Shown here in pieces: positions 22,898 through 39,837 of a stretch of DNA of 39,837 nt. The notes under the pieces are model-generated. The model was not told the origin of the DNA. It ran no database searches and saw only the letters and a list, made by a program, of their open reading frames with translations. The translations under genes and the position numbers were made by a program. Positions within the stretch are counted from its first letter, which is position 1, and each line of letters starts with the position of its first letter. The stretch lies in contig JADGOM010000027.1 of NCBI GenBank assembly GCA_017882925.1, forward strand, positions 1 to 39,837, given 5' to 3'. This DNA comes from Acidimicrobiia bacterium. GTDB taxonomy: Bacteria > Actinomycetota > Acidimicrobiia > IMCC26256 > Chersky-534.

Positions 22898-22926
22898 TTG
22901 ACCGGTTGGTCAAGCGCCCGTACCCT
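22898..22926 (+). promoter_or_regulatory. tetR promoter with palindromic operator
   Basis: TTGACC (22898-22903), 17 bases, TACCCT (22921-22926), six bases, then ATG: a complete leaderless promoter. The -35 is one arm of the perfect palindrome TTGACC-GGTT-GGTCAA (22898-22913), a typical TetR-family operator. Binding there would block the promoter, so the regulator very likely represses itself. Confidence 0.75.
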
Positions 22927-22932
22927 CCCGCG

Positions 22933-23517
22933 ATGCGCCGCGAGCTCACGCCCCGGGGGAAGGAACGCCGGGCCCAGATCCTGCAGCGCTCCGCCGACCT
23001 GTTCGCCGAGCGCGGCTACCACCCCACGTCGGTGGCCGACATCGTGGCCAGCCTCGGGGTGGGCAAGGGCGTCTTCTACTGGTACTTCGCGAGCAAGGAA
23101 GAGCTGCTCTGCGAGATCCTGCGCGCCGGCCACCAGGACCTGCGCCGCCGCCAGCACGAGGCGCTCGCGGCCGAGACCGATCCGCTGCGCCGCATCGAGC
23201 TCGGCATCCGCGCGTCGATCGTGTGGTTCAAGGAGCACCAGCACTACTTCCGGCTGTTCCAGTTCGCCGCCACCGAGGAGGCGTTCTCGCCGGTGCTGCT
23301 GCGCAACGAGCAGATCGCGATCGCCGACACGGTGCGCCACATCAAGGACGCGATCGTGGAAGGTGAGATCGCCGACACCGACCCCGAAGTGCTCGCCTAC
23401 GCGATCCTCGGCGTGGTCGAGCAGATCACCGAGACGTACCTCTTCGAGCGCGACGAGCCCGTCGAGCGCGTCGGCGACGCCGCCGTGCGCTTCTGCCTCC
23501 GCGGCCTCGCCGGCTGA
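22933..23517 (+). CDS. TetR/AcrR-family transcriptional regulator
   Basis: The 194-residue protein has an N-terminal TetR helix-turn-helix (about residues 10-58, with AERGYHPTSVADIVASLGVGKGVFYWYFASKEELL) and a helical ligand-binding domain with no assignable ligand. GVFYWYF is a common TetR-family variant. The ATG at 22933 is fixed by a promoter that ends six bases upstream; an in-frame GTG start at 22906 would lie inside that promoter. The palindrome in the promoter suggests autoregulation. No obvious target gene is divergent from it, so other targets, if any, lie elsewhere. Confidence 0.92.
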   Translation: MRRELTPRGKERRAQILQRSADLFAERGYHPTSVADIVASLGVGKGVFYWYFASKEELLCEILRAGHQDLRRRQHEALAAETDPLRRIELGIRASIVWFKEHQHYFRLFQFAATEEAFSPVLLRNEQIAIADTVRHIKDAIVEGEIADTDPEVLAYAILGVVEQITETYLFERDEPVERVGDAAVRFCLRGLAG

Positions 23518-25665: not shown

Positions 25666-26643
25666 TCAGTTGGGGGAGGCGACGGGGTCGGGGGCGGCGT
25701 GGATGTGGTCGCCCTCGGCGTAGAACTGCGAGTAGAAGCGGCGGAACGTCATGATCGGACCGTCGGTGTCGGCGAGCGCGGGCACGACGAGGTGCTGCTT
25801 GTGCTCCCAGATCGGGATGTCCTCGTTCATCTGCTGGTTGATCATCGCCACGAAGAGCTCGGCGAGCCGGGGCACCGACCCGTCGGGCTTGCGGCGGACG
25901 GTGAAGTTGAACCGCACCTGCGCGGTCTCGTCGTCGATCGGGGTCGACGTCGCGACGAGCAGCGCGTCGATGATCCCGCTGAAGTGGGTGGTCGAGAACC
26001 CGGGCCCGTAGCCGTGGACGTCGATGCGCCCGTCGACCACGCCCTTGGGCGTCACGTACTTCTGCACCGACAGCATCGTGTTGAACGGGCCGTCGAGCTC
26101 GTAGGCCTCCACCACCGCCACCTCGTCGGTGCCGTGCACGTACTGGAAGTGCGCGAGGTCGACGGTGTTCTCCGCCATCTCCTGGAGCGCGCTCCTCACC
26201 GTGAACTCCGACGTGATGTAGTCGGAGAACGCCGGGTCGCCGACCCCCTCGATGACGGGGATCTCCCACGCGGGCGGCGCCGCGAACGGGTGGTACCACG
26301 CGAGCACGAACCCGTTGCGCTCGACGAGCGGGTACGTGTGCAGGCGGGCCTTGCGGTTGACGCGGTCGCTGTAGGGGATGTCGGCGCACGCGCCCGCGGC
26401 GTCGAACTCCCAGCCGTGGAACGGGCACACGATGTTGCCGGCCTTCACCGAGCCGCCATAGCCGATGTGCGCGCCGAGGTGCGGGCAGATCGCGTCCTGC
26501 AGGTGCGCGGCGCCGGCGTCGTCGCGCCAGAGGACCAGGTCGCGCCCGAAGTAGCGGAGCGGCTGCACCTCGCCCGGGGCGATCTCCTCCGGGAAGGCGA
26601 CCTGGTACCAGCCGAACGGGATCGGGAACGGGAAGCGCGCCAC
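25666..26643 (-). CDS. Rieske non-heme iron oxygenase, KshA/DAF-36-like
   Basis: The 325-residue oxygenase has an N-terminal Rieske [2Fe-2S] domain with CPHLGAH (C53, H55) and CPFHGW (C73, H76). A catalytic domain follows, with the mononuclear-iron motif AENTVDLAHFQYVHG (H165 and H170 as ligands, D162 bridging). The C-terminal IWEHKQHL and FRRFYSQFY blocks match the 3-ketosteroid 9-alpha-hydroxylase / cholesterol 7-desaturase group, so a steroid-like substrate is likely but not proven. No reductase is encoded beside it. The GTG at 26643 follows GAGGAG by nine bases. A KstR-type palindrome lies at the predicted transcription start 40-50 bases upstream. Confidence 0.9.
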   Translation of the reverse strand: MARFPFPIPFGWYQVAFPEEIAPGEVQPLRYFGRDLVLWRDDAGAAHLQDAICPHLGAHIGYGGSVKAGNIVCPFHGWEFDAAGACADIPYSDRVNRKARLHTYPLVERNGFVLAWYHPFAAPPAWEIPVIEGVGDPAFSDYITSEFTVRSALQEMAENTVDLAHFQYVHGTDEVAVVEAYELDGPFNTMLSVQKYVTPKGVVDGRIDVHGYGPGFSTTHFSGIIDALLVATSTPIDDETAQVRFNFTVRRKPDGSVPRLAELFVAMINQQMNEDIPIWEHKQHLVVPALADTDGPIMTFRRFYSQFYAEGDHIHAAPDPVASPN

Positions 26644-26678
26644 GGGGCTGTCTCCTCGTCGGGTTCGCGTCCCCGAAA

Positions 26679-26698
26679 TGGAACGCGTTCTCATCCTA
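26679..26698 (-). promoter_or_regulatory. Rieske gene promoter with KstR-like palindrome
   Basis: On the - strand TAGGAT (26698-26693) would be the -10. Directly downstream is the palindrome GAACGCGTTC (26690-26681), which on the + strand reads TGGAACGCGTTCTC and matches the KstR consensus TnnAACnnGTTnnA at all but the last position. Overlap with the predicted start of transcription fits a repressor site. Confidence 0.55.
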
Positions 26699-26714: not shown

Positions 26715-27446
26715 TCAGTCGTGGGCCGCGTCGGCCGAGGCCCGCGCGGCCGCTTCCTCCCGCTGCTCGTCCTTGCGAAACACGAAGGCGAGCCCGATCA
26801 GGGCCAGCGGGGCCACGAGCCAGAACAGCACGCCCAGCGTCGGGTGCACGACGCTCGCGAAGACGATCGAGAGCGCGAACACCGCCGGCGTCACCACCGA
26901 CCGCACGCTCTCGCGGCGGATCCGGGCCCGGGTCACGTCGGTGCGCAGGAGCCGGCCCCACTGCGCGGCGTAGACCCACATGACCGTGAGGGCCAGCGCC
27001 GCGATCAACACGGTCGCGCCGTAGAGCACGACGGCCCGGGTGGCGACGGCGCTGCCGTCGGTCGTGAGGTAGGCGCCGCCGGAGTAGTCGGCCAGGACCT
27101 TCGTGCTGAACGGCAGGAAGCACACGACGGCCAGGAACGCGAGGTTGATCCAGCGGAGGATCGCGTCCTGACGCGCGATGAGGTCGAAGGCGCGGTGGTG
27201 CAGCTGCCAGAACATCCCGATGAGGAAGAAGCTCAGCAGGAACAGCGGGATGGTCTCGAGCGCGCCACGCAGCTCGTGGCCGAACGCGGCATCGTTGCGC
27301 AGGTGGCTCGGGATCTTGAACTGGAACGCGGTGAGCGTGGCGGCGACGGCGAGCACGCCGTCGGAGAACGCGACCAGGCGGCCGACCTCGCCGTGCGCCC
27401 GGCGGGCTTCGGCGCGGCTCGTGGGGACGAGTTCGGCGTGCGGCAT
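26715..27446 (-). CDS. TMEM175-family (DUF1211) potassium-channel-like membrane protein
   Basis: The 243-residue protein has six predicted membrane helices. Its first helix carries the TMEM175 hallmark RLVAFSDGVLAVAATLTAF (F27-S28-D29). Bacterial TMEM175 proteins form tetrameric K+-selective channels, and this has the single-repeat bacterial length. The ATG at 27446 is chosen because it lies just before the FSD helix; no Shine-Dalgarno sequence is evident, and the open frame further upstream belongs to no known family. It sits between the thiolase operon and the Rieske gene on the same strand. A role in steroid catabolism is not implied. Confidence 0.85.
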   Translation of the reverse strand: MPHAELVPTSRAEARRAHGEVGRLVAFSDGVLAVAATLTAFQFKIPSHLRNDAAFGHELRGALETIPLFLLSFFLIGMFWQLHHRAFDLIARQDAILRWINLAFLAVVCFLPFSTKVLADYSGGAYLTTDGSAVATRAVVLYGATVLIAALALTVMWVYAAQWGRLLRTDVTRARIRRESVRSVVTPAVFALSIVFASVVHPTLGVLFWLVAPLALIGLAFVFRKDEQREEAAARASADAAHD

Positions 27447-27489
27447 GCCGTGGATCGTGGCCCACGGAACCGCGCAACGGTGTGATGCT

Positions 27490-27532: not shown

Positions 27533-28693
27533 CTACGGCTTGTCGGCCCCCACGACCCACATCGCGAAGAACTGCGAGCCGCCGCCGTAGGCGTGGCCCA
27601 ACGCGCGCCGCGCGCCTTCCACCTGGTGCTCCCCCGCCGCGCCACGCACCTGGTTGGCCGCCTCGGCGAAGCGCAGCATGCCGCTGGCGCCGATCGGGTT
27701 GCTCGACAGCACGCCACCCGACGGGTTCCACGGGATGTCCCCGTCGAACGCGGTCGCGCCCGACTGCGTGAGCTTCCAGCCCTCGCCCGGCGCGGCGAAG
27801 CCGAGGTTCTCGAGCCACATCGGCTCGTACCAGCTGAAGGGCACGTAGACCTCGGCGCAGTCGAAGTCCTCGCGCGGGTTGGTGATCCCGGCCTGCCGGT
27901 ACACGTCGGCCGCGCAGTCGAGTCCCGCTTGCGGGTTGACCTGGTCGCGGCGGGCGAACAGCGTGGGCTCACTGCGCCACGCGGTGCCCTGGACCCACGC
28001 CGGCGGCCTGGACGCGGCATCGGCCACCCGTTCGCTCGCGAGCACCATCGCGCACGCGCCGTCGGAGGAGGGGCACGTCTCCAGGTATCGCAGCGGCTCC
28101 CAGAGCATCGGCGACTCCTCCACCATCTGCATGTCGATGTCGGGGAGCTTGAGGTGCGCGTACGGGTTGCGGATCGCGTTGAGCCGGTCCTTGACCGCCA
28201 CCATCATCCCGATGTCGGCGGGCGCGCCGGCCCGTTGCATGTAGGCGCGGATGAGCGGGGCGAAGTATCCGCCCGCGCCCGCGACCAGCGGGGCCTGGAA
28301 CGGCGTGGGCACGGTGAGCGCCCACATCGCGTCCGACTCGCTCTGCTTCTCGAACGCCACCGTGAGCACGCGTTCGTGCACGCCCGACTGCACCAACCCC
28401 GCGGCCACGATCGCGGTGCTGCCCCCGACGCTGCCCGCGGTGTGCACCCGCAGCATCGGCTTGCCCGCGGCGCCCAGCGCGTCGGCCAGGAACAGCTCCG
28501 GCATCACGACGCCCTCGAACATGTCGGGCGCCTTGCCGATCACGACGGCGTCGATGTCGGTCCACGTCATCTCGGCGTCGGCCAGCGCGCGCTTGGCTGC
28601 CTCGCGGACGAGGCCCACCATCGAGACGTCGGCCCGCACGGCCCGGTGCTCCGTCTGGCCGACCCCGACCACTGCGACGCGTTCGGCGCTCAT
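27533..28693 (-). CDS. thiolase-like (Ltp/SCP-x type) protein, second of a pair
   Basis: The 386-residue protein has a thiolase fold like the Ltp2/SCP-x group. In place of the nucleophilic Cys it has Ser (HTAGSVGGSTA, about residue 88), and the usual HPxGASG motif reads NPIGASG, so both canonical catalytic residues are missing. Conserved blocks include YLETCPSSDGACAMVL, DCAEVYVPFSWYEPMWLENLGF and GHAYGGGSQFFAMWVVG. Such proteins work with DUF35 partners; Ltp2-ChsH2 acts as a retro-aldolase in cholesterol side-chain breakdown. The ATG at 28693 overlaps the stop of the first thiolase-like gene (ATGA). Confidence 0.88.
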   Translation of the reverse strand: MSAERVAVVGVGQTEHRAVRADVSMVGLVREAAKRALADAEMTWTDIDAVVIGKAPDMFEGVVMPELFLADALGAAGKPMLRVHTAGSVGGSTAIVAAGLVQSGVHERVLTVAFEKQSESDAMWALTVPTPFQAPLVAGAGGYFAPLIRAYMQRAGAPADIGMMVAVKDRLNAIRNPYAHLKLPDIDMQMVEESPMLWEPLRYLETCPSSDGACAMVLASERVADAASRPPAWVQGTAWRSEPTLFARRDQVNPQAGLDCAADVYRQAGITNPREDFDCAEVYVPFSWYEPMWLENLGFAAPGEGWKLTQSGATAFDGDIPWNPSGGVLSSNPIGASGMLRFAEAANQVRGAAGEHQVEGARRALGHAYGGGSQFFAMWVVGADKP

Positions 28694-29766
28694 GCGTCCT
28701 CCCCTTCGAGCACGCAGACGAGGTTCTGCTGGAGACACGGTCCCGACGACGCGTGCGCGATCGCGCGGCCGGCCTCACCGTCCATGACCCGCGCCGCGGC
28801 CTCGCCGATGCGGATGAGCCCTGCGGCCATCGGCGGGTTGGCCTGGAGCGGCCCGCCCGACGGGTTGACGTTGGCGCCGTCCTCGAGGCCGAGCGCCTCG
28901 CGCAGGATGAGCTCCTCGTGGCTGAACTGCGTGTGCAGCTCGGCCACGTCGACGGGCCCGTCGCCCACGCCCGCGGTGAGCGCCGCGAGCGCGGTGGACG
29001 TCGACACCGAGAGGTCGCGGAACCCGAGCGCCTGCGGCTCGATGCGGTGGTCGATGCCGGTGATCCAGGCCGGGCGCAGCTCCCGCTTCGCGGCCAGCTC
29101 CTTCGCCAGATCGCCGGCCGCGAGCACGATCGCGGCACAGCCGTCGGTGTCGGGTGCGACGTCGCCCGGGCGCAACGGCGACGCGATCGTCGGCTGCGCG
29201 AGCAGCTCGTCGACCGCATCGGGCTCGAGATCCACACCGTTGGCCCACGCCCAGTTGCGCAGGCTGCGGGCGCCGACCTCGACCAGGTCGTGCTCGGTGC
29301 CGCCGGTGCGGTCCATCCAGGCCCGGGCCTGCAGCGCGGCCACCGAGATGGTGTCGGGCCAGAGCGGGCCCACCGTGTACGGGTCGAGCTGGAGGGTGAA
29401 GATCTCGCTCGGGTCACCGGGCGACGCCTTGCCGAAGCCGTAGACGAGGGCCGAGTCGACCGAGCCCTTCTGGATCTGGATCCAGGCCTCGTAGAGCGCC
29501 CAGGCCGCGTCCATCTCCACGTGGCTCTCGCGGATCGGCGGCCACGCGCCCACCGCGTCGAGCGCGCTGACGAAGCTGAACGGCGCGCCGATGAGGTAGT
29601 CGCAGCTGCCGGAGACGGTGAAGCCGATCTCCTCACGCGGGAGCCCGCTGTCGGCCACCGCCTCGGCGACGACCGGCATGAGCATCTCGACCTCGTTGCG
29701 TTGGAGCTCGGCGGGCGAGGTCCAGCTCGCGTAGGACACGACCGCCACGTCGCGGGTCGGCGCCAT
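28690..29766 (-). CDS. thiolase-like protein, first of a pair
   Basis: The 358-residue thiolase-fold protein is diverged from its neighbour. The nucleophile region (SHVEMDAAWALYEAW, about 81-95) has no Cys, and the His motif is replaced by NPPMAAG. The C-terminal HASSGPCLQQNLVCVLEG block is typical of SCP-x-like thiolases. It probably pairs with the second protein in a heteromeric complex with the DUF35 protein encoded just upstream. The ATG at 29766 shares one base with the DUF35 stop (TGATG) and its own stop overlaps the next gene, so the three are made in register. Confidence 0.86.
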   Translation of the reverse strand: MAPTRDVAVVSYASWTSPAELQRNEVEMLMPVVAEAVADSGLPREEIGFTVSGSCDYLIGAPFSFVSALDAVGAWPPIRESHVEMDAAWALYEAWIQIQKGSVDSALVYGFGKASPGDPSEIFTLQLDPYTVGPLWPDTISVAALQARAWMDRTGGTEHDLVEVGARSLRNWAWANGVDLEPDAVDELLAQPTIASPLRPGDVAPDTDGCAAIVLAAGDLAKELAAKRELRPAWITGIDHRIEPQALGFRDLSVSTSTALAALTAGVGDGPVDVAELHTQFSHEELILREALGLEDGANVNPSGGPLQANPPMAAGLIRIGEAAARVMDGEAGRAIAHASSGPCLQQNLVCVLEGEDA

Positions 29767-30737
29767 CAGAGGTACTCCTTGTACGAGTCGTACTCGGCGT
29801 CGGGCTCGCCCGTCGGGCGGTACCACTTGATGCTCTCGAGGGTGGGGCCCACCTCGTCGGCCCACACCGCCTCGACCCGCAGGCCCTGGCGCACGTCGGC
29901 GGCGGGCATGTCGGCGACGAGTCCGAACAGCGCGATGTCGGCGCCGTCGAGGAGGATCTGCGCGCAGACGTAGGGGACCTCGGGCGCGAGCGGCGAGAAC
30001 GGCAGGTTGACCACGCAGAACGTCGTGACCACGCCGCGCGGGCCCACCTCCACCTCGTCGACCGTGGGCGTGCCCGTCTTGGGATCGCTCCCCCTCGGCG
30101 GCACGTAGACGTCGCCGCCGGGGCCGGTGCGCTGGCCGAGGATCCGCCGCTGCGCGAGACCGAGCAGGAAGCGGGTGGCGGCCACGCCCGCGCCGATGTC
30201 GTACTCGAGCTTCACCGGTGAGCTCATCGTGGTGACGGGCTCGGTCGACGTCGCCGGTTTCGCCGCCGACGCGCCGCCGGTGCCTTCCGGCACCCAGGCC
30301 TCGATGTCGAGGGTGTCGCCCACGCGCTCGTCCCGCCACTTCGGCACCACGCGCATCCCCGTGTGCATGGCGTTCTCGGTGCCGGCGTCGACCACGTGCA
30401 CGATCGCGGTGTCGGCGCCGTCGGGCTGGATCAGCGCGAATGCGAACGGGTGGTCGAGCGGGTGCTTCGGCCGGGGCTCGGAGATCCACGTCCACGTGGT
30501 GACGGTGCCGCCGGGTCCGACCTCGAGGAAGTCGGCGTCGGACGCGCCCGCGTCCTCGCCGGTGACCGGGTCGTACTCGGCCGGCGGGATCATCACGCGG
30601 CCGTCGCCCAGCCGGACCGCGATCAGCCGCCCGTCGCGCAGGCCCGTGAGGTAGCGACCGATGACCGGCCCGACGGTGCGCGTGTAGCCGCCCGGGTACT
30701 CCAGGATGTGGTGCTCGACCAGGACCTCGTCCGCCAT
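29766..30737 (-). CDS. tandem DUF35 (OB-fold) acyl-CoA-associated protein
   Basis: The 323-residue protein contains two DUF35 OB-fold domains (about residues 15-150 and 180-312). Each has a rubredoxin-like-position segment without the zinc-binding Cys (VMIPPAEYDP; VYVPPRGSDP) and a GTVTTWTW or GVVTTFCV strand. DUF35 proteins are partners of thiolases and thiolase-like aldolases and are thought to channel acyl-CoA. Two domains in one chain match the two thiolase-like proteins that follow. The ATG at 30737 follows GGAG by about nine bases. It lies 72 bases after the acyl-CoA synthetase gene. Confidence 0.85.
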   Translation of the reverse strand: MADEVLVEHHILEYPGGYTRTVGPVIGRYLTGLRDGRLIAVRLGDGRVMIPPAEYDPVTGEDAGASDADFLEVGPGGTVTTWTWISEPRPKHPLDHPFAFALIQPDGADTAIVHVVDAGTENAMHTGMRVVPKWRDERVGDTLDIEAWVPEGTGGASAAKPATSTEPVTTMSSPVKLEYDIGAGVAATRFLLGLAQRRILGQRTGPGGDVYVPPRGSDPKTGTPTVDEVEVGPRGVVTTFCVVNLPFSPLAPEVPYVCAQILLDGADIALFGLVADMPAADVRQGLRVEAVWADEVGPTLESIKWYRPTGEPDAEYDSYKEYL

Positions 30738-30809: not shown

Positions 30810-32360
30810 TCAGATCGCGTTGCGGCCCTCCCAGTAGGGGTCGCGCAGGCGGCGCTTGTAGAGCTTGCCGGTGGGATCGCGCGGCATCGTCTCGATGAAG
30901 TCGATCGTCTTCGGCCACTTGAACTTCGCGAGCCGGGGCTGGAGGAACGCGAGGATCTCGGCCGCGAGCTCGGGGCTCGGCTCGACGCCCTCCGCCGGCT
31001 CGATCACGGCCTTGATCTCCTCGCCCCAGTCGTCGTTCGGGATCCCGAAGACGGCGGCGTCGCCGACGGCCGGGTGAGCGAGGATCTCGCCCTCGATCTC
31101 GGCCGGATAGATGTTGACCCCGCCCGAGATGATCATGTCGGCCTTGCGGTCGTTGAGGAACAGGAAGCCGTCGTCGGTGAGGTACCCGATGTCGCCCACG
31201 GTGAAGAAGCCCTCGAGCCGGTTGGCCTCGGTCTTGTCCTTGTCGCCCTTGTACTCGAAGTCACCGGTCGACATCTTCATGTAGACGGTCCCGGGCTCTC
31301 CGGTCGGCAACGTGTCGCCGTTGTCGTCGACGATGCGCAGCTCGCTGATCGGCCACGCGTTGCCGACCGTGCCGGGATGCGCGAGCCAGTCCTGCGGGGT
31401 GGCCAGCGTGCCGCCGCCCTCGGTGGCCGCGTAGTACTCGTAGATCACCGGGCCGAACCAGTCGAGCATCTTGAACTTGACGTCGACGGGGCACGGCGCA
31501 GCCGCGTGGATCGCGTACCGCATCGACGACACGTCGTACTTCGCGCGCACGGCCTCGGGCAGCGCGAGCATCCGGTGGAACTGGGTCGGGACCATGTGCG
31601 TGGTGGTCACCTTGTACCGCTGGATCGCGTCGAGCGTCCCCTCCGCCGTCCACTTGTCCATGAGCACGAGCGTGTGGCCCGCGTGCAGCGAGTTGCCCCC
31701 GAACTGCGTGACGGCCGTGTGGTAGTTGGGCGACGTGACGAGATGCACGTTGCCACCACGCGGCTCGATGCCGAACAGCAGCAGGAACATCGCCATGAGC
31801 TCGGCGCTCGTGTCGGGGTCGAGGCCGCTCAGCGGGCGGCGCACGCCCTTCGGCCGGCCGGTCGTGCCGCTCGTGTAGTGCATCGCGGCACCCGCGGTGC
31901 GCTCATCGGGCGCGGTGGTCGGCTGGCCGTCGAGCAGCTCCTCGATCGGGCGGAAGCCGGCGATCGGGCCGCCGATCGAGAAGCGCGCCTCGGGTGGGAA
32001 GTCGATCTCCTCCACCGCGGCGATGGCGACGTCGGCGTAGCGGGGCGACGCGAAGAACGCCTTCGCCTCGGAGTCGGCGAGGATGTAGGCGACCTCGGGG
32101 CCGGTGAGGTGGTAGTTAATCGGCGTCGTGAACCACCCCGACTGCAGCGCGGCGAGGTACACCTCCACCGCGCCGATCGAGTTGGGCAGCAGCGACGCGA
32201 TCCCGTCGCCCACCTCGAGGCCGAGCGAGCGGAGGCCGTGGGAGAGCTGGTTGGTGCGGGCGAGGATGTCGCCGGCGCGGTGGCCGGTGCCCTCGGGGTC
32301 GACGACCGCGATCCAGTCCGGATCGGCCTGCGCGAGGTTCCAGAATCCAAGCTCGGCCAA
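30810..32360 (-). CDS. acyl-CoA synthetase (FadD-type, bile-acid/fatty-acid CoA ligase)
   Basis: The 516-residue adenylate-forming enzyme would activate a carboxylic acid with ATP and CoA. Motifs: the P-loop YTSGTTGRPKG, YEYYAATEGGG (A5-type), TVGDIGYLTDDGFLFLNDRKADMIISGG with the hinge, and the catalytic Lys in DPTGKLYKRRLR near the C-terminus. The substrate is probably a steroid side chain or long-chain acid given the neighbours. The TTG at 32360 is preferred, just after GGGGGGAAA. A GTG at 32411 is in frame but lies inside the operator palindrome. It is the first gene of the operon leading to the DUF35 and thiolase genes. Confidence 0.9.
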   Translation of the reverse strand: MAELGFWNLAQADPDWIAVVDPEGTGHRAGDILARTNQLSHGLRSLGLEVGDGIASLLPNSIGAVEVYLAALQSGWFTTPINYHLTGPEVAYILADSEAKAFFASPRYADVAIAAVEEIDFPPEARFSIGGPIAGFRPIEELLDGQPTTAPDERTAGAAMHYTSGTTGRPKGVRRPLSGLDPDTSAELMAMFLLLFGIEPRGGNVHLVTSPNYHTAVTQFGGNSLHAGHTLVLMDKWTAEGTLDAIQRYKVTTTHMVPTQFHRMLALPEAVRAKYDVSSMRYAIHAAAPCPVDVKFKMLDWFGPVIYEYYAATEGGGTLATPQDWLAHPGTVGNAWPISELRIVDDNGDTLPTGEPGTVYMKMSTGDFEYKGDKDKTEANRLEGFFTVGDIGYLTDDGFLFLNDRKADMIISGGVNIYPAEIEGEILAHPAVGDAAVFGIPNDDWGEEIKAVIEPAEGVEPSPELAAEILAFLQPRLAKFKWPKTIDFIETMPRDPTGKLYKRRLRDPYWEGRNAI

Positions 32361-32403
32361 TGTTTCCCCCCGGAGTCGCCTCGGACGTGACGGCAACCGG
32401 AAG

Positions 32404-32417
32404 TAGAACACGTTCTC
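32404..32417 (-). promoter_or_regulatory. KstR-type operator at the acyl-CoA synthetase promoter
   Basis: AGAACACGTTCT (32405-32416) is a perfect 12-bp palindrome. With its flanks it matches the KstR consensus TnnAACnnGTTnnA at 13 of 14 positions. It lies 45-55 bases upstream of the TTG start, where a -10 (TTCTAC/TCTACT on the - strand) would be, so binding would block transcription of the operon. KstR is a TetR-family repressor of cholesterol catabolism in mycobacteria and rhodococci; no such gene is next to this site. Confidence 0.6.
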
Positions 32418-32522
32418 GTTAGGCCGTACAAGCCGGATCGGGCGCGGCGGCGCCCGCCGCGTGGCGCGACGGGCGTCGGTGCGGCGCGCTCCGCGTCCGG
32501 GACGGCCGGCCGGCCGTCGCTG

Positions 32523-34561: not shown

Positions 34562-35941
34562 ATGTCCCCCTTCTCGCGACCCCTGGTCGCGGCACGCCCG
34601 ATCGTCGCACTGTGCGTCACCCTGCTCGTCGCGTTCGCCGCCCTCCTCGCCGGCCCCGTCCAGCCCGCCGCCGCGTTCGGCGTCGGTGGCCACCACCTCT
34701 ACCTCCTCGGCGACTCGGTGATGGTGGGCAGCGCGCCCGCGATCGCCGGCGCCCTCCCCGGGTGGAGCACCACGGTCGACGCCAAGGTCGGGCTCAGCAC
34801 GCTCGCGGGGGCGGGGATCGCGCGGGGGCGGGGCGCGGTCCCCGGCGACGTGTGCGTCGTCGACCTCGGCAGCAACGACGGCGCCAACCCCGCGGCGCTG
34901 CGCGGCCGCATCGATGCGGTGATGGACGCGCTGCGCGGCTGCGGCCACGTGATCTGGGTGAACCTGCACGAGTTCGCGGGCTGGGTGCCCGCGGCCAATG
35001 CCGAGATCAACGCGGCCGCGACCCGCTGGCCCAACCTGGAGATCGCCGACTGGAACGCCATCGCGCGCACCGACCGCGGCCTCACCACCCCCGACGGCGT
35101 CCACCCGACGACCTCCGGGCGGCAGGCGCTCGCGGCGTTGGTGAGCCGGCGGGTCCAGGTCTGGTCGTTCCTCAGCTCGACCGCGCAACCGTGGTTCCGG
35201 GCGTTCGGCGCGTCGACCGCCTTCGACGCCGGCGCGACCCTCGTCCCCCGGGCTCCGGCAGCCGTCGCCCAGACCCCCGACGGCGAGGGCGCGTGGCTCG
35301 CGTACCCCGACGGCCGGATCGTCGCGGTCGGCAACGCCACCGCGGTGCCGAGCCAGCCGCCGTTCGCGGGCCTCCGTGCACCCATCGCCGGCATCACCCC
35401 CACCCCCACCGGCCGGGGCTTCTGGCTCGTGGGCTCGGACGGCGGTGTCTTCACCTACGGCGACGCCCGGTACCACGGCGGGCTCGCGGGCTCGCCGATC
35501 GGCCGCCCGGTGGTCGGCATCGCGGCCACCCGCGACGGGCAGGGCTACTGGCTCGTCGACTCGGCCGGGCGGGTGTACCCGTACGACGCGCCGGATCTCG
35601 GCTCGGCGCCCCCGGTCGCGGCTCCCATCGTCGGGATCAGCAGCGACCCCGCCGTCGACGGCTACCGGCTGCTCGGCATCGACGGGGGCGTCCTCACCTA
35701 CGGCGCGGCCCGGTTCGCGGGCAGCGCCTACGGCATGACGCAGTCGTTCGCGACCCAGATGGTGACCACCGCGTCCGGCAAGGGCTACTGGATCCTCACC
35801 GTCGACGGCTCCGTCTACTCCTTCGGCGACGCGCCGTTCTTCGGCGTCCCCGGCCTCGAGCCCCGCGTCGGCTACTCCGGGCTCGTCGTGCACGAGGGCG
35901 CCACCGGCTACGTGCTCGTCGGCGGCCGCGGCCTCATCTGA
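34562..35941 (+). CDS. secreted SGNH/GDSL hydrolase-like protein with GYWLV repeats
   Basis: The 459-residue exported protein has a signal peptide (about 1-38), an SGNH-like domain with YLLGDSVMVG (Ser nucleophile block), VDLGSNDGAN and the DGVHPTTSG His block near residue 180, and a C-terminal array of about five repeats (about 235-455). These are of the type PI-GI-T-DG-GYWLV-S-GGVFTYGDA-F-G, probably a beta propeller. This repeat is especially common in exported proteins of Acidimicrobiia (recalled). The second block has Asn replaced by neutral sequence, so enzyme activity is uncertain. The transcript is probably leaderless. A 52-base gap leads to valS. Confidence 0.87.
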   Translation: MSPFSRPLVAARPIVALCVTLLVAFAALLAGPVQPAAAFGVGGHHLYLLGDSVMVGSAPAIAGALPGWSTTVDAKVGLSTLAGAGIARGRGAVPGDVCVVDLGSNDGANPAALRGRIDAVMDALRGCGHVIWVNLHEFAGWVPAANAEINAAATRWPNLEIADWNAIARTDRGLTTPDGVHPTTSGRQALAALVSRRVQVWSFLSSTAQPWFRAFGASTAFDAGATLVPRAPAAVAQTPDGEGAWLAYPDGRIVAVGNATAVPSQPPFAGLRAPIAGITPTPTGRGFWLVGSDGGVFTYGDARYHGGLAGSPIGRPVVGIAATRDGQGYWLVDSAGRVYPYDAPDLGSAPPVAAPIVGISSDPAVDGYRLLGIDGGVLTYGAARFAGSAYGMTQSFATQMVTTASGKGYWILTVDGSVYSFGDAPFFGVPGLEPRVGYSGLVVHEGATGYVLVGGRGLI

Positions 35942-38688: not shown

Positions 38689-39837
38689 TCAGGTGGTCCA
38701 GGTGACGGGGAGGTGGCGGATCCCGTTGATGAGGTTGCTGTGCAGCTGCTGGGGCTCGCCCGCCAGCTGCATGTCGGGGAGCTGGCCGAGGATCTGCTCG
38801 AACATGGCCCGGATCTCGAGCTTGGCCAGGCTCGCGCCGAGGCAGTAGTGCGGGCCGCGGCCGCCGAACGCGATGTGGTCGTTGGGCGTGCGCAACGCGT
38901 CGAACTCCTGGCCCCGGTCGAAGACGTCCTCGTCGCGGTTGGCCGCGCCGTACCAGATGGTGACCTTCTGCCCCGCTTCGATCGGGACGCCGCGCAGCTC
39001 CGTGTCGACGGTGGCGGTGCGGCGGAAGTACTGCACCGGCGACACGTAGCGCAGCATCTCGTCGACCGCGAGCGGCAGGCCGCTCATGTCCTGCAGCAGG
39101 CGCTCGCGCTGGTCGGGGTGCTGGAGCAGGGCCAGCATCCCGCCGGAGATGAGGTTGCGGGTGGTCTCGTTGCCGGCCACCGAGAGGAGGAGGAAGAAGA
39201 CGTTGAACTCGATGTCGGAGAGCTTCTCGCCCTCGAGCTCGCCGGTGATGAGCTGGGTGACGAGGTCGTCCATCGGCCGCGCCTTGCGGTCGTCGGCCAG
39301 GCTCTGCGCGTAGGCGTAGAGCTCGAACGCGGCCGCGGCGCCCTCGTCGGCGCCCCCGCCGTACTCGGGGTCGCTCGCGCCGATCATGCGGTTGGACCAC
39401 TCGAAGACCTTGTGCCGGTCCTCGTAGGGGACGCCGATGAGCTCGCTGATCACGACCAGGGGGAGCTCGGCCGCGAACGCGGTGACGAAGTCGGCCTCGC
39501 CCCGGTCGGCCACCGCGGCCACGATCTGGCGGGTGGCCTCGGTGACGCTCTCGGTCATGGAGTTGATGATCTTGGGCGTGAAGCCCCGGGCGACGAGCAT
39601 GCGCAGCCGGGTGTGCTGCGGGGCGTCCTGGTTGAGCATCATCAGCTCGGTGCCGTCGGCCATGTCCATGAGCAGCGCCCCGCCCCGGGCCGACGAGAAC
39701 GTGGCCACGTCGCGCTCGATGGCGATCACGTCGTCGTACTTCGTGCAGACCCAGAAGCCCGACGGCTCCAGCTCCGTGGGACCGTGCCACCAGACCGGGG
39801 CCTCGTTGCGGAGCCAGGTGAAGAACTCGTGCGGCGG
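38689..39837 (-). CDS. cytochrome P450, CYP125/CYP142-like (N-terminus beyond the window)
   Basis: The 382 residues inside the window lack only the first part of a P450 of about 410 residues; the frame is open at the right edge, starting with PPHEFFTWLRNEAPVWW. It shows QDAPQHTRLRMLVARGFTP, the I-helix AGNETTR, the ExxR motif EMLR, and the heme-binding FGGRGPHYCLGASLAKLE (Cys codon at 38842-38844). The overall pattern is close to CYP125/CYP142 sterol C26/C27 hydroxylases (sequence recalled, not searched). The internal Met or Val at 39729 is not the start. It fits the steroid-type catabolic genes to its left. Electron-transfer partners are not in view. Confidence 0.93.
   Translation of the reverse strand, partial: PPHEFFTWLRNEAPVWWHGPTELEPSGFWVCTKYDDVIAIERDVATFSSARGGALLMDMADGTELMMLNQDAPQHTRLRMLVARGFTPKIINSMTESVTEATRQIVAAVADRGEADFVTAFAAELPLVVISELIGVPYEDRHKVFEWSNRMIGASDPEYGGGADEGAAAAFELYAYAQSLADDRKARPMDDLVTQLITGELEGEKLSDIEFNVFFLLLSVAGNETTRNLISGGMLALLQHPDQRERLLQDMSGLPLAVDEMLRYVSPVQYFRRTATVDTELRGVPIEAGQKVTIWYGAANRDEDVFDRGQEFDALRTPNDHIAFGGRGPHYCLGASLAKLEIRAMFEQILGQLPDMQLAGEPQQLHSNLINGIRHLPVTWTT

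Follow-up and report, generated by a model that had tools for sequence, protein, structure and literature searches.

Introduction

The closest described system is that of KstR in Mycobacterium. In the parts of PMC1995591 (Kendall et al. 2007) drawn on here, KstR sites have a GAAC-N2-GTTC core with flanks like those reported below, the kstR gene has a site of its own, and the targets include Rv3526, the genes behind Rv3520c/Rv3521, and Rv3545c. The KstR motif of Nocardioides simplex is very similar to the mycobacterial one, and both cyp125 and kshA belong to its regulon, according to the sections cited (PMC7593942). The regulon predicted here likewise has cyp125 and kshA among its targets, but its regulators are paralogous and it occurs in an order of Acidimicrobiia, a class to which Nocardioides does not belong. 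We take Rv3526 to be kshA, the genes behind Rv3520c/Rv3521 to be DUF35/ltp genes, and Rv3545c to be cyp125; all of these recur in the present case. KstR2 has an operator of the same general kind, a short-centred palindrome of the TetR type at steroid genes, and its half-sites are CAAG and CTTG.

The present locus differs from the mycobacterial system in several respects. There are two KstR-like clades with separate self-sites and a third, divergent protein; the self-site of clade A is asymmetric (GC/GTT) around a CG centre; neither an Mce match nor a clear HsaC was found in this genome, which is 80% complete; and fadD is FadD4-like rather than FadD19-like. We describe here a predicted KstR-type operator upstream of fadD in a stretch of 39,837 nucleotides from an Acidimicrobiia bacterium (the window, meaning that whole stretch), its relatives elsewhere in the genome and in related genomes, and the regulators that might bind it.

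Results

A predicted KstR-type operator upstream of fadD

The 14-mer TAGAACACGTTCTC lies at positions 32404-32417, exactly where the earlier note had located it, 43 bp upstream of the fadD start codon (TTG, 32360), and on the gene strand the site reads GAGAACGTGTTCTA. This TTG was chosen as the start because the match of the relatives begins there (residue 1); the program-called open reading frame begins earlier, at 32411, and would overlap the site. The 14-mer had been described as a perfect palindrome, which is not the case: the arms AGAAC and GTTCT pair, and the central AC is unpaired. It had also been credited with fitting 13 of the 14 positions of TnnAACnnGTTnnA, a count to which the n positions contributed; what stands is a match to seven of the eight fixed bases of that motif (AAC-N2-GTT flanked by an outer T and an outer A), the outer A being replaced by C. 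Published KstR sites deviate at the outer base too, e.g., ACGAGAACACGTTCTAGTTG, among the entries cited from Table 3 of PMC1995591.

We scored the window with a symmetrised matrix built from 47 mycobacterial KstR sites (PMC1995591, Table 3). The fadD site, which exceeded 35 of the 47 training sites on this mycobacterial matrix, was the top-scoring position of the whole window. It was followed by a site absent from the earlier note that precedes the KshA-like gene by about 35 bp, and the next independent position scored 8.9 (Table 1). A third-order random sequence of 3.4 Mb contained no position scoring 16 or more. When the matrix columns were permuted, 4 of 1000 symmetric versions gave at least 20.7 at some position of the window. 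By the bare consensus with one mismatch the fadD site is not unusual, the window having 7 matches versus 1.2 in shuffles. A consensus scan detected no sigma-70-type promoter; judged from its position, the fadD site may overlap the promoter. In the cited rows of Table 3 of PMC1995591, the mycobacterial site of Rv0223c, with the same ACGAGAACGTGTTC stretch, was EMSA-negative, the similar site of MSMEG_2645 was positive by RT-qPCR, and the KstR site at Rv3520c/Rv3521 was EMSA-positive.

The GAAC and GTTC half-sites are identical to those of a LexA (SOS) box, and the fadD site might be read as such. The LexA consensus is GAAC-N4-GTTC, with a spacer of 4 instead of the 2 found at fadD. Moreover, a box with the N4 spacing, GAAC-N4-GTTC, is present in the source genome where a Y-family-polymerase-like gene begins (L037 about 1342-1361; box about 1345-1356), and the targets of the present motif are steroid genes, not repair genes, which makes a LexA assignment wholly improbable. 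A KstR2 reading was set aside as well, since the half-sites differ (CAAG/CTTG versus GAAC/GTTC).

Table 1. Genes and predicted operators in the window
Feature	Position	Strand	Evidence
KshA-like Rieske oxygenase, GTG start by sequence	25666..26643	-	KshA_C 119 bits, cut-off 23.3
Second KstR-type operator, predicted, upstream of KshA-like gene	26675..26694	.	Matrix score 16.7
TMEM175-like membrane protein	26715..27455	-	PF06736 78 bits
Thiolase-like protein	27533..28738	-	PRK08313 697 bits, cut-off 514
Thiolase-like lipid-transfer protein	28690..29757	-	PRK07937 502 bits, cut-off 419
Double OB-fold protein (DUF35, ChsH2-C type)	29766..30737	-	PF01796 70 bits, 2 stretches
fadD, AMP-binding acyl-CoA synthetase, TTG start by homology	30810..32360	-	Pfam AMP-binding 199 bits
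KstR-type operator, predicted, upstream of fadD	32402..32421	.	Core GAACACGTTC 32406-32415; matrix score 20.8
CYP125-like cytochrome P450, truncated by contig end	38689..39837	-	PDB CYP125MRCA 2.5e-143

As computed directly, most of the neighbour genes are of a steroid side-chain nature. The window FadD scored 486 bits with a FadD4-like model, under the cut-off of 850 (91% for the relative L073). We named the thiolase-like lipid-transfer protein Ltp4-like and the other thiolase-like protein, whose gene may truly start at about 28693, Ltp3-like, on our own assumption. The KshA-like protein matched KshA in the PDB (4qdc) at 1.2e-39, and the CYP125-like protein matched CYP125 of M. tuberculosis at about 1e-100. 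The DUF35-Ltp4-Ltp3-KshA gene set presumably parallels Rv3521-Rv3526 of M. tuberculosis.

Related sites precede steroid genes elsewhere in the genome

In the source genome, sites lie before the cyp125/echA19-like genes, a chsE4-chsE5-like pair, fadD genes and the kshA-like gene. AACNNGTTCTAYTT occurs exactly at only four places in 3.4 Mb, namely upstream of the window fadD, of a second fadD (C165; PRK07798 above cut-off), of an acyl-CoA dehydrogenase pair (C102) and of a kstR-like gene. The C102 pair matched chains A and D of the M. tuberculosis structure 4x28, which we take to be ChsE4-ChsE5, at 2.2e-150 and 2.6e-70, respectively. An intergenic site with a score of 18.9 (L173:1500-1519, on C2) lies about 26 bp before a gene named aldehyde-dehydrogenase-like from reading its sequence, which is a candidate further target.

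Looser patterns showed little excess, with 57 and 62 places versus 55 and 45 in the control for TAGAACNNGTTCTCGTA with three mismatches, and 82 and 86 versus 79 and 81 for AACNNGTTCTAYTT with two; therefore, only near-exact matches carry signal. Three of the eight genome sites of AGAACNNGTTCT are upstream of named regulon genes, three are inside likely genes (L035, L037, L041), and the other two (L036, L040) are covered by no called gene, so that the bare pattern alone is unspecific. The bare consensus GAACNNGTTC was found at 94 places per strand, and its reversed control, CAAG-N2-CTTG, is rare (5 places). A weak site on C159 (10.3), between an unnamed gene and one called ilvD-like from its sequence, with no search, was left out of the count. 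Three other matrix matches of at least 14 in the retrieved DNA were judged not to be operators, one inside a ligase-like gene (L057), one before a PadR-like gene (L186) and one at the GAAC-N4-GTTC box of L037, the gene names at these three loci coming from reading the sequence.

The site is conserved upstream of DUF35-linked actinobacterial fadD genes

We collected 56 FadD relatives, sorted by record titles into 32 actinobacterial and 24 other loci, and counted matrix scores of at least 13 within 270 bp upstream. A KstR-type site preceded fadD in 19 of the 20 actinobacterial loci with a DUF35 match, as expected from the regulon that the earlier note had proposed. Without DUF35, the site was present in 4 of 12 actinobacterial loci and missing in 8. 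Altogether 23/32 actinobacterial loci had a site; the 32 include L126, a partial match, and L080, with just 56 bp of upstream sequence, neither of which could be expected to score. The background in the same loci was 32/1350 windows, some of them perhaps true sites. Sites were found in 3/24 non-actinobacterial loci, against a background of 85/1087, and two of these, L099 and L115, look like chance matches in AT-rich sequence.

A KstR-like gene was present in the retrieved flanks of 5/32 actinobacterial and 9/24 other fadD loci, indicating that Myxococcota-type genomes can retain the gene neighbourhood while lacking this operator. The MAG Myxococcales bacterium B22T1B5 stands apart among the non-actinobacterial loci in having a strong site (20.5) before fadD (L117:4019-4038), for which transfer or mis-binning is a possible explanation.

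The window probably continues into a contig with a kstR-like gene

The end of the window, 39787-39837, is identical to C202:1-51. Given this exact 51-bp overlap, contig C202 most likely continues the window, the two abutting in the genome. If they are joined, cyp125 and an echA19-like gene diverge over a site at C202:138-157 (score 14.8), and a kstR-like gene begins roughly 4 kb past the end of the window, near position 43780 if the numbering is carried on. In the sister genome G001, a single contig bears, in this order, kstR-like, nitronate-monooxygenase-like, echA, cyp125, valS, an unknown-family gene (window 34562-35941), fadD, DUF35, ltp4, ltp3, tmem175 and kshA. Its sites at fadD (20.8, same core), kshA (17.5) and cyp125/echA (14.8) are conserved, and the kstR self-site is likewise.

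Two clades of KstR-like proteins with distinct self-sites

A TetR_N search of the genome gave 45 matches. Compared with M. tuberculosis KstR, the C224 protein scored 110 bits (39%), the C202 protein 99 bits (40%) and the C87 protein 71 bits (32%), followed by the next TetR protein of the genome with 32 bits. The genome thus does have KstR-like TetR proteins, on which the earlier note had made its regulon depend. KstR was the best PDB match of the C202 protein (1.6e-27), and identity to KstR in the HTH region was 33/53 for C202 and 30/53 for C224. The best NCBIfam family of the C202, C224 and C87 proteins is NF033703 (KstR equivalog), with 138.5, 164 and 104 bits; as these scores are below the curated cut-off of 280, we call the proteins KstR-like and not KstR. 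The one on C87 is the more divergent third. The TetR gene of the window itself (22906-23517) was rejected as the regulator, its product being FasR-like (2.6e-18, below cut-off) and matching KstR only at 3.5e-4. The position of this gene is conserved in G001.

The C202 gene has an upstream self-site, TGCAACCGGTTCTA, with 8/8 fixed bases. It is asymmetric (GC/GTT, centre CG; half-sites GCAAC/GTTCT) and does not reach 10 with the mycobacterial matrix. The C224 gene (L222:918-1553) has the self-site TGAAACACGTTCCG, with 7/8 fixed bases, directly before its ATG. In a tree of the retrieved KstR-like proteins, judged by its branching order, clade A (C202, L129) was separated from clade B (C224), and both clades coexist in the source genome and in relatives, each with its own type of self-site. 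We surveyed the best of about 79 matches (L129-L158) and a hand-picked second set (L248-L267) for AACnnGTT between 300 bp before and 75 bp after the projected start. The motif was near the start of the kstR-like gene in 16/30 and 16/20 loci, respectively; the second-set loci without it were L261 (same gene as L151), L262 (C87), L265 and L266. Most retrieved loci of clade-B genes have self-sites.

These data bear on which paralogue the fadD site serves. The site may be a genuine operator whose main user is C224, the paralogue of clade B, or one that the paralogues share, instead of belonging to the C202 protein. By both bit scores given above, C224 is a little nearer to KstR of M. tuberculosis; it has its own site, as do most clade-B genes retrieved, and the GAAC/GTTC half-sites of clade B resemble the fadD site more than the clade-A self-site does. 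Conversely, the C202-type gene is linked to fadD, kshA and cyp125 both here and in G001, and GTTCTACTT, the extension downstream of its self-site, recurs at the window fadD site. We regard an assignment to C224 or to both as a sizeable possibility, although one we would not bet on.

Motif excess tracks KstR-like proteins in 61 related genomes

Of 61 related genomes, 48 have a protein matching that of C202 with an E value of at most 1e-20; we call these KstR-positive. TNNAACNNGTTCTA occurred 364 times in these 48, versus 132 for the reversed control, and 36 times, versus 62, in the 13 genomes without a KstR-like match. The motif excess thus tracks the presence of KstR-like proteins among the 61 genomes. 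The Mann-Whitney value of 7.8e-6 overstates the evidence, the reversed control being the sole correction for kinship and base composition.

The frequency of the bare consensus and the want of excess for loose patterns would suit a chance match at fadD, or an operator of an unrelated regulator. Either is very unlikely in view of the high matrix score of the fadD site, unmatched in random sequence, its conservation in orthologous promoters, the co-occurrence with KstR-like proteins and the placement of the sites at steroid genes.

TIGR03213-type ring-cleavage genes appear uncommon in KstR-positive genomes

In the source genome, which is 80% complete, we found no MCE family match (PF02470), and the HsaC proxy TIGR03213 gave 19.7 bits, i.e., no clear HsaC, compared with 101 bits in G001. 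Strong HsaC-like proteins (TIGR03213, E <1e-60) were present in 9/61 genomes, 6 of the 48 KstR-positive ones and 3 of the 13 others. KstR-like control therefore seems common where TIGR03213-type ring-cleavage genes are not, and steroid ring cleavage by the TIGR03213 route looks rare among KstR-positive genomes. A tentative and rather doubtful reading is that KstR control predates the complete cholesterol pathway. Two paralogues with near-identical operators would then control a module for the side chains of sterols or isoprenoids (CYP125, FadD, ChsE4/5-like, EchA19-like, Ltp and KshA-like) throughout the order, in many genomes without HsaC-like and, at least here, without Mce genes.

Discussion

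The site upstream of fadD, its conservation and the co-occurring KstR-like proteins come from direct computation, and from the sequence the site is very probably an operator for a KstR-like TetR repressor. The earlier note had placed this Acidimicrobiia operon in a KstR-like regulon; orthologous promoters, KstR-like proteins and sites at steroid genes support that proposal. We infer that a dimer of a KstR-like repressor, with C202 or C224 as the presumed main paralogue, would bind GAAC-N2-GTTC upstream of fadD and keep the fadD-DUF35-thiolase-like genes off. The same class of repressor would act at kshA, the divergent cyp125/echA19-like promoter, the chsE4-chsE5-like pair, the second fadD, the aldehyde dehydrogenase gene and its own gene. 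Release would be brought about by a sterol-derived acyl-CoA, partly a product of the regulon's CYP125 and acyl-CoA ligase. Both the repression and its relief by a steroid acyl-CoA are carried over by analogy from KstR, for which an inducer of the 3-oxo-cholest-4-en-26-oyl-CoA class is described in the part of PMC7593942 cited.

Among the open-access journal papers searched, none named both KstR and Acidimicrobiia, and Acidimicrobiia do not occur in the main text of two surveys of steroid degraders (PMC5790920, PMC4810484). The predicted regulon would carry a control system familiar chiefly from mycobacteria and related bacteria into a class whose members are for the most part uncultured, in which KstR-type sites would tie together sterol genes that lie apart. 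The paralogues may also serve as a natural experiment on the way in which a single operator set is shared out between duplicated KstR-like repressors.
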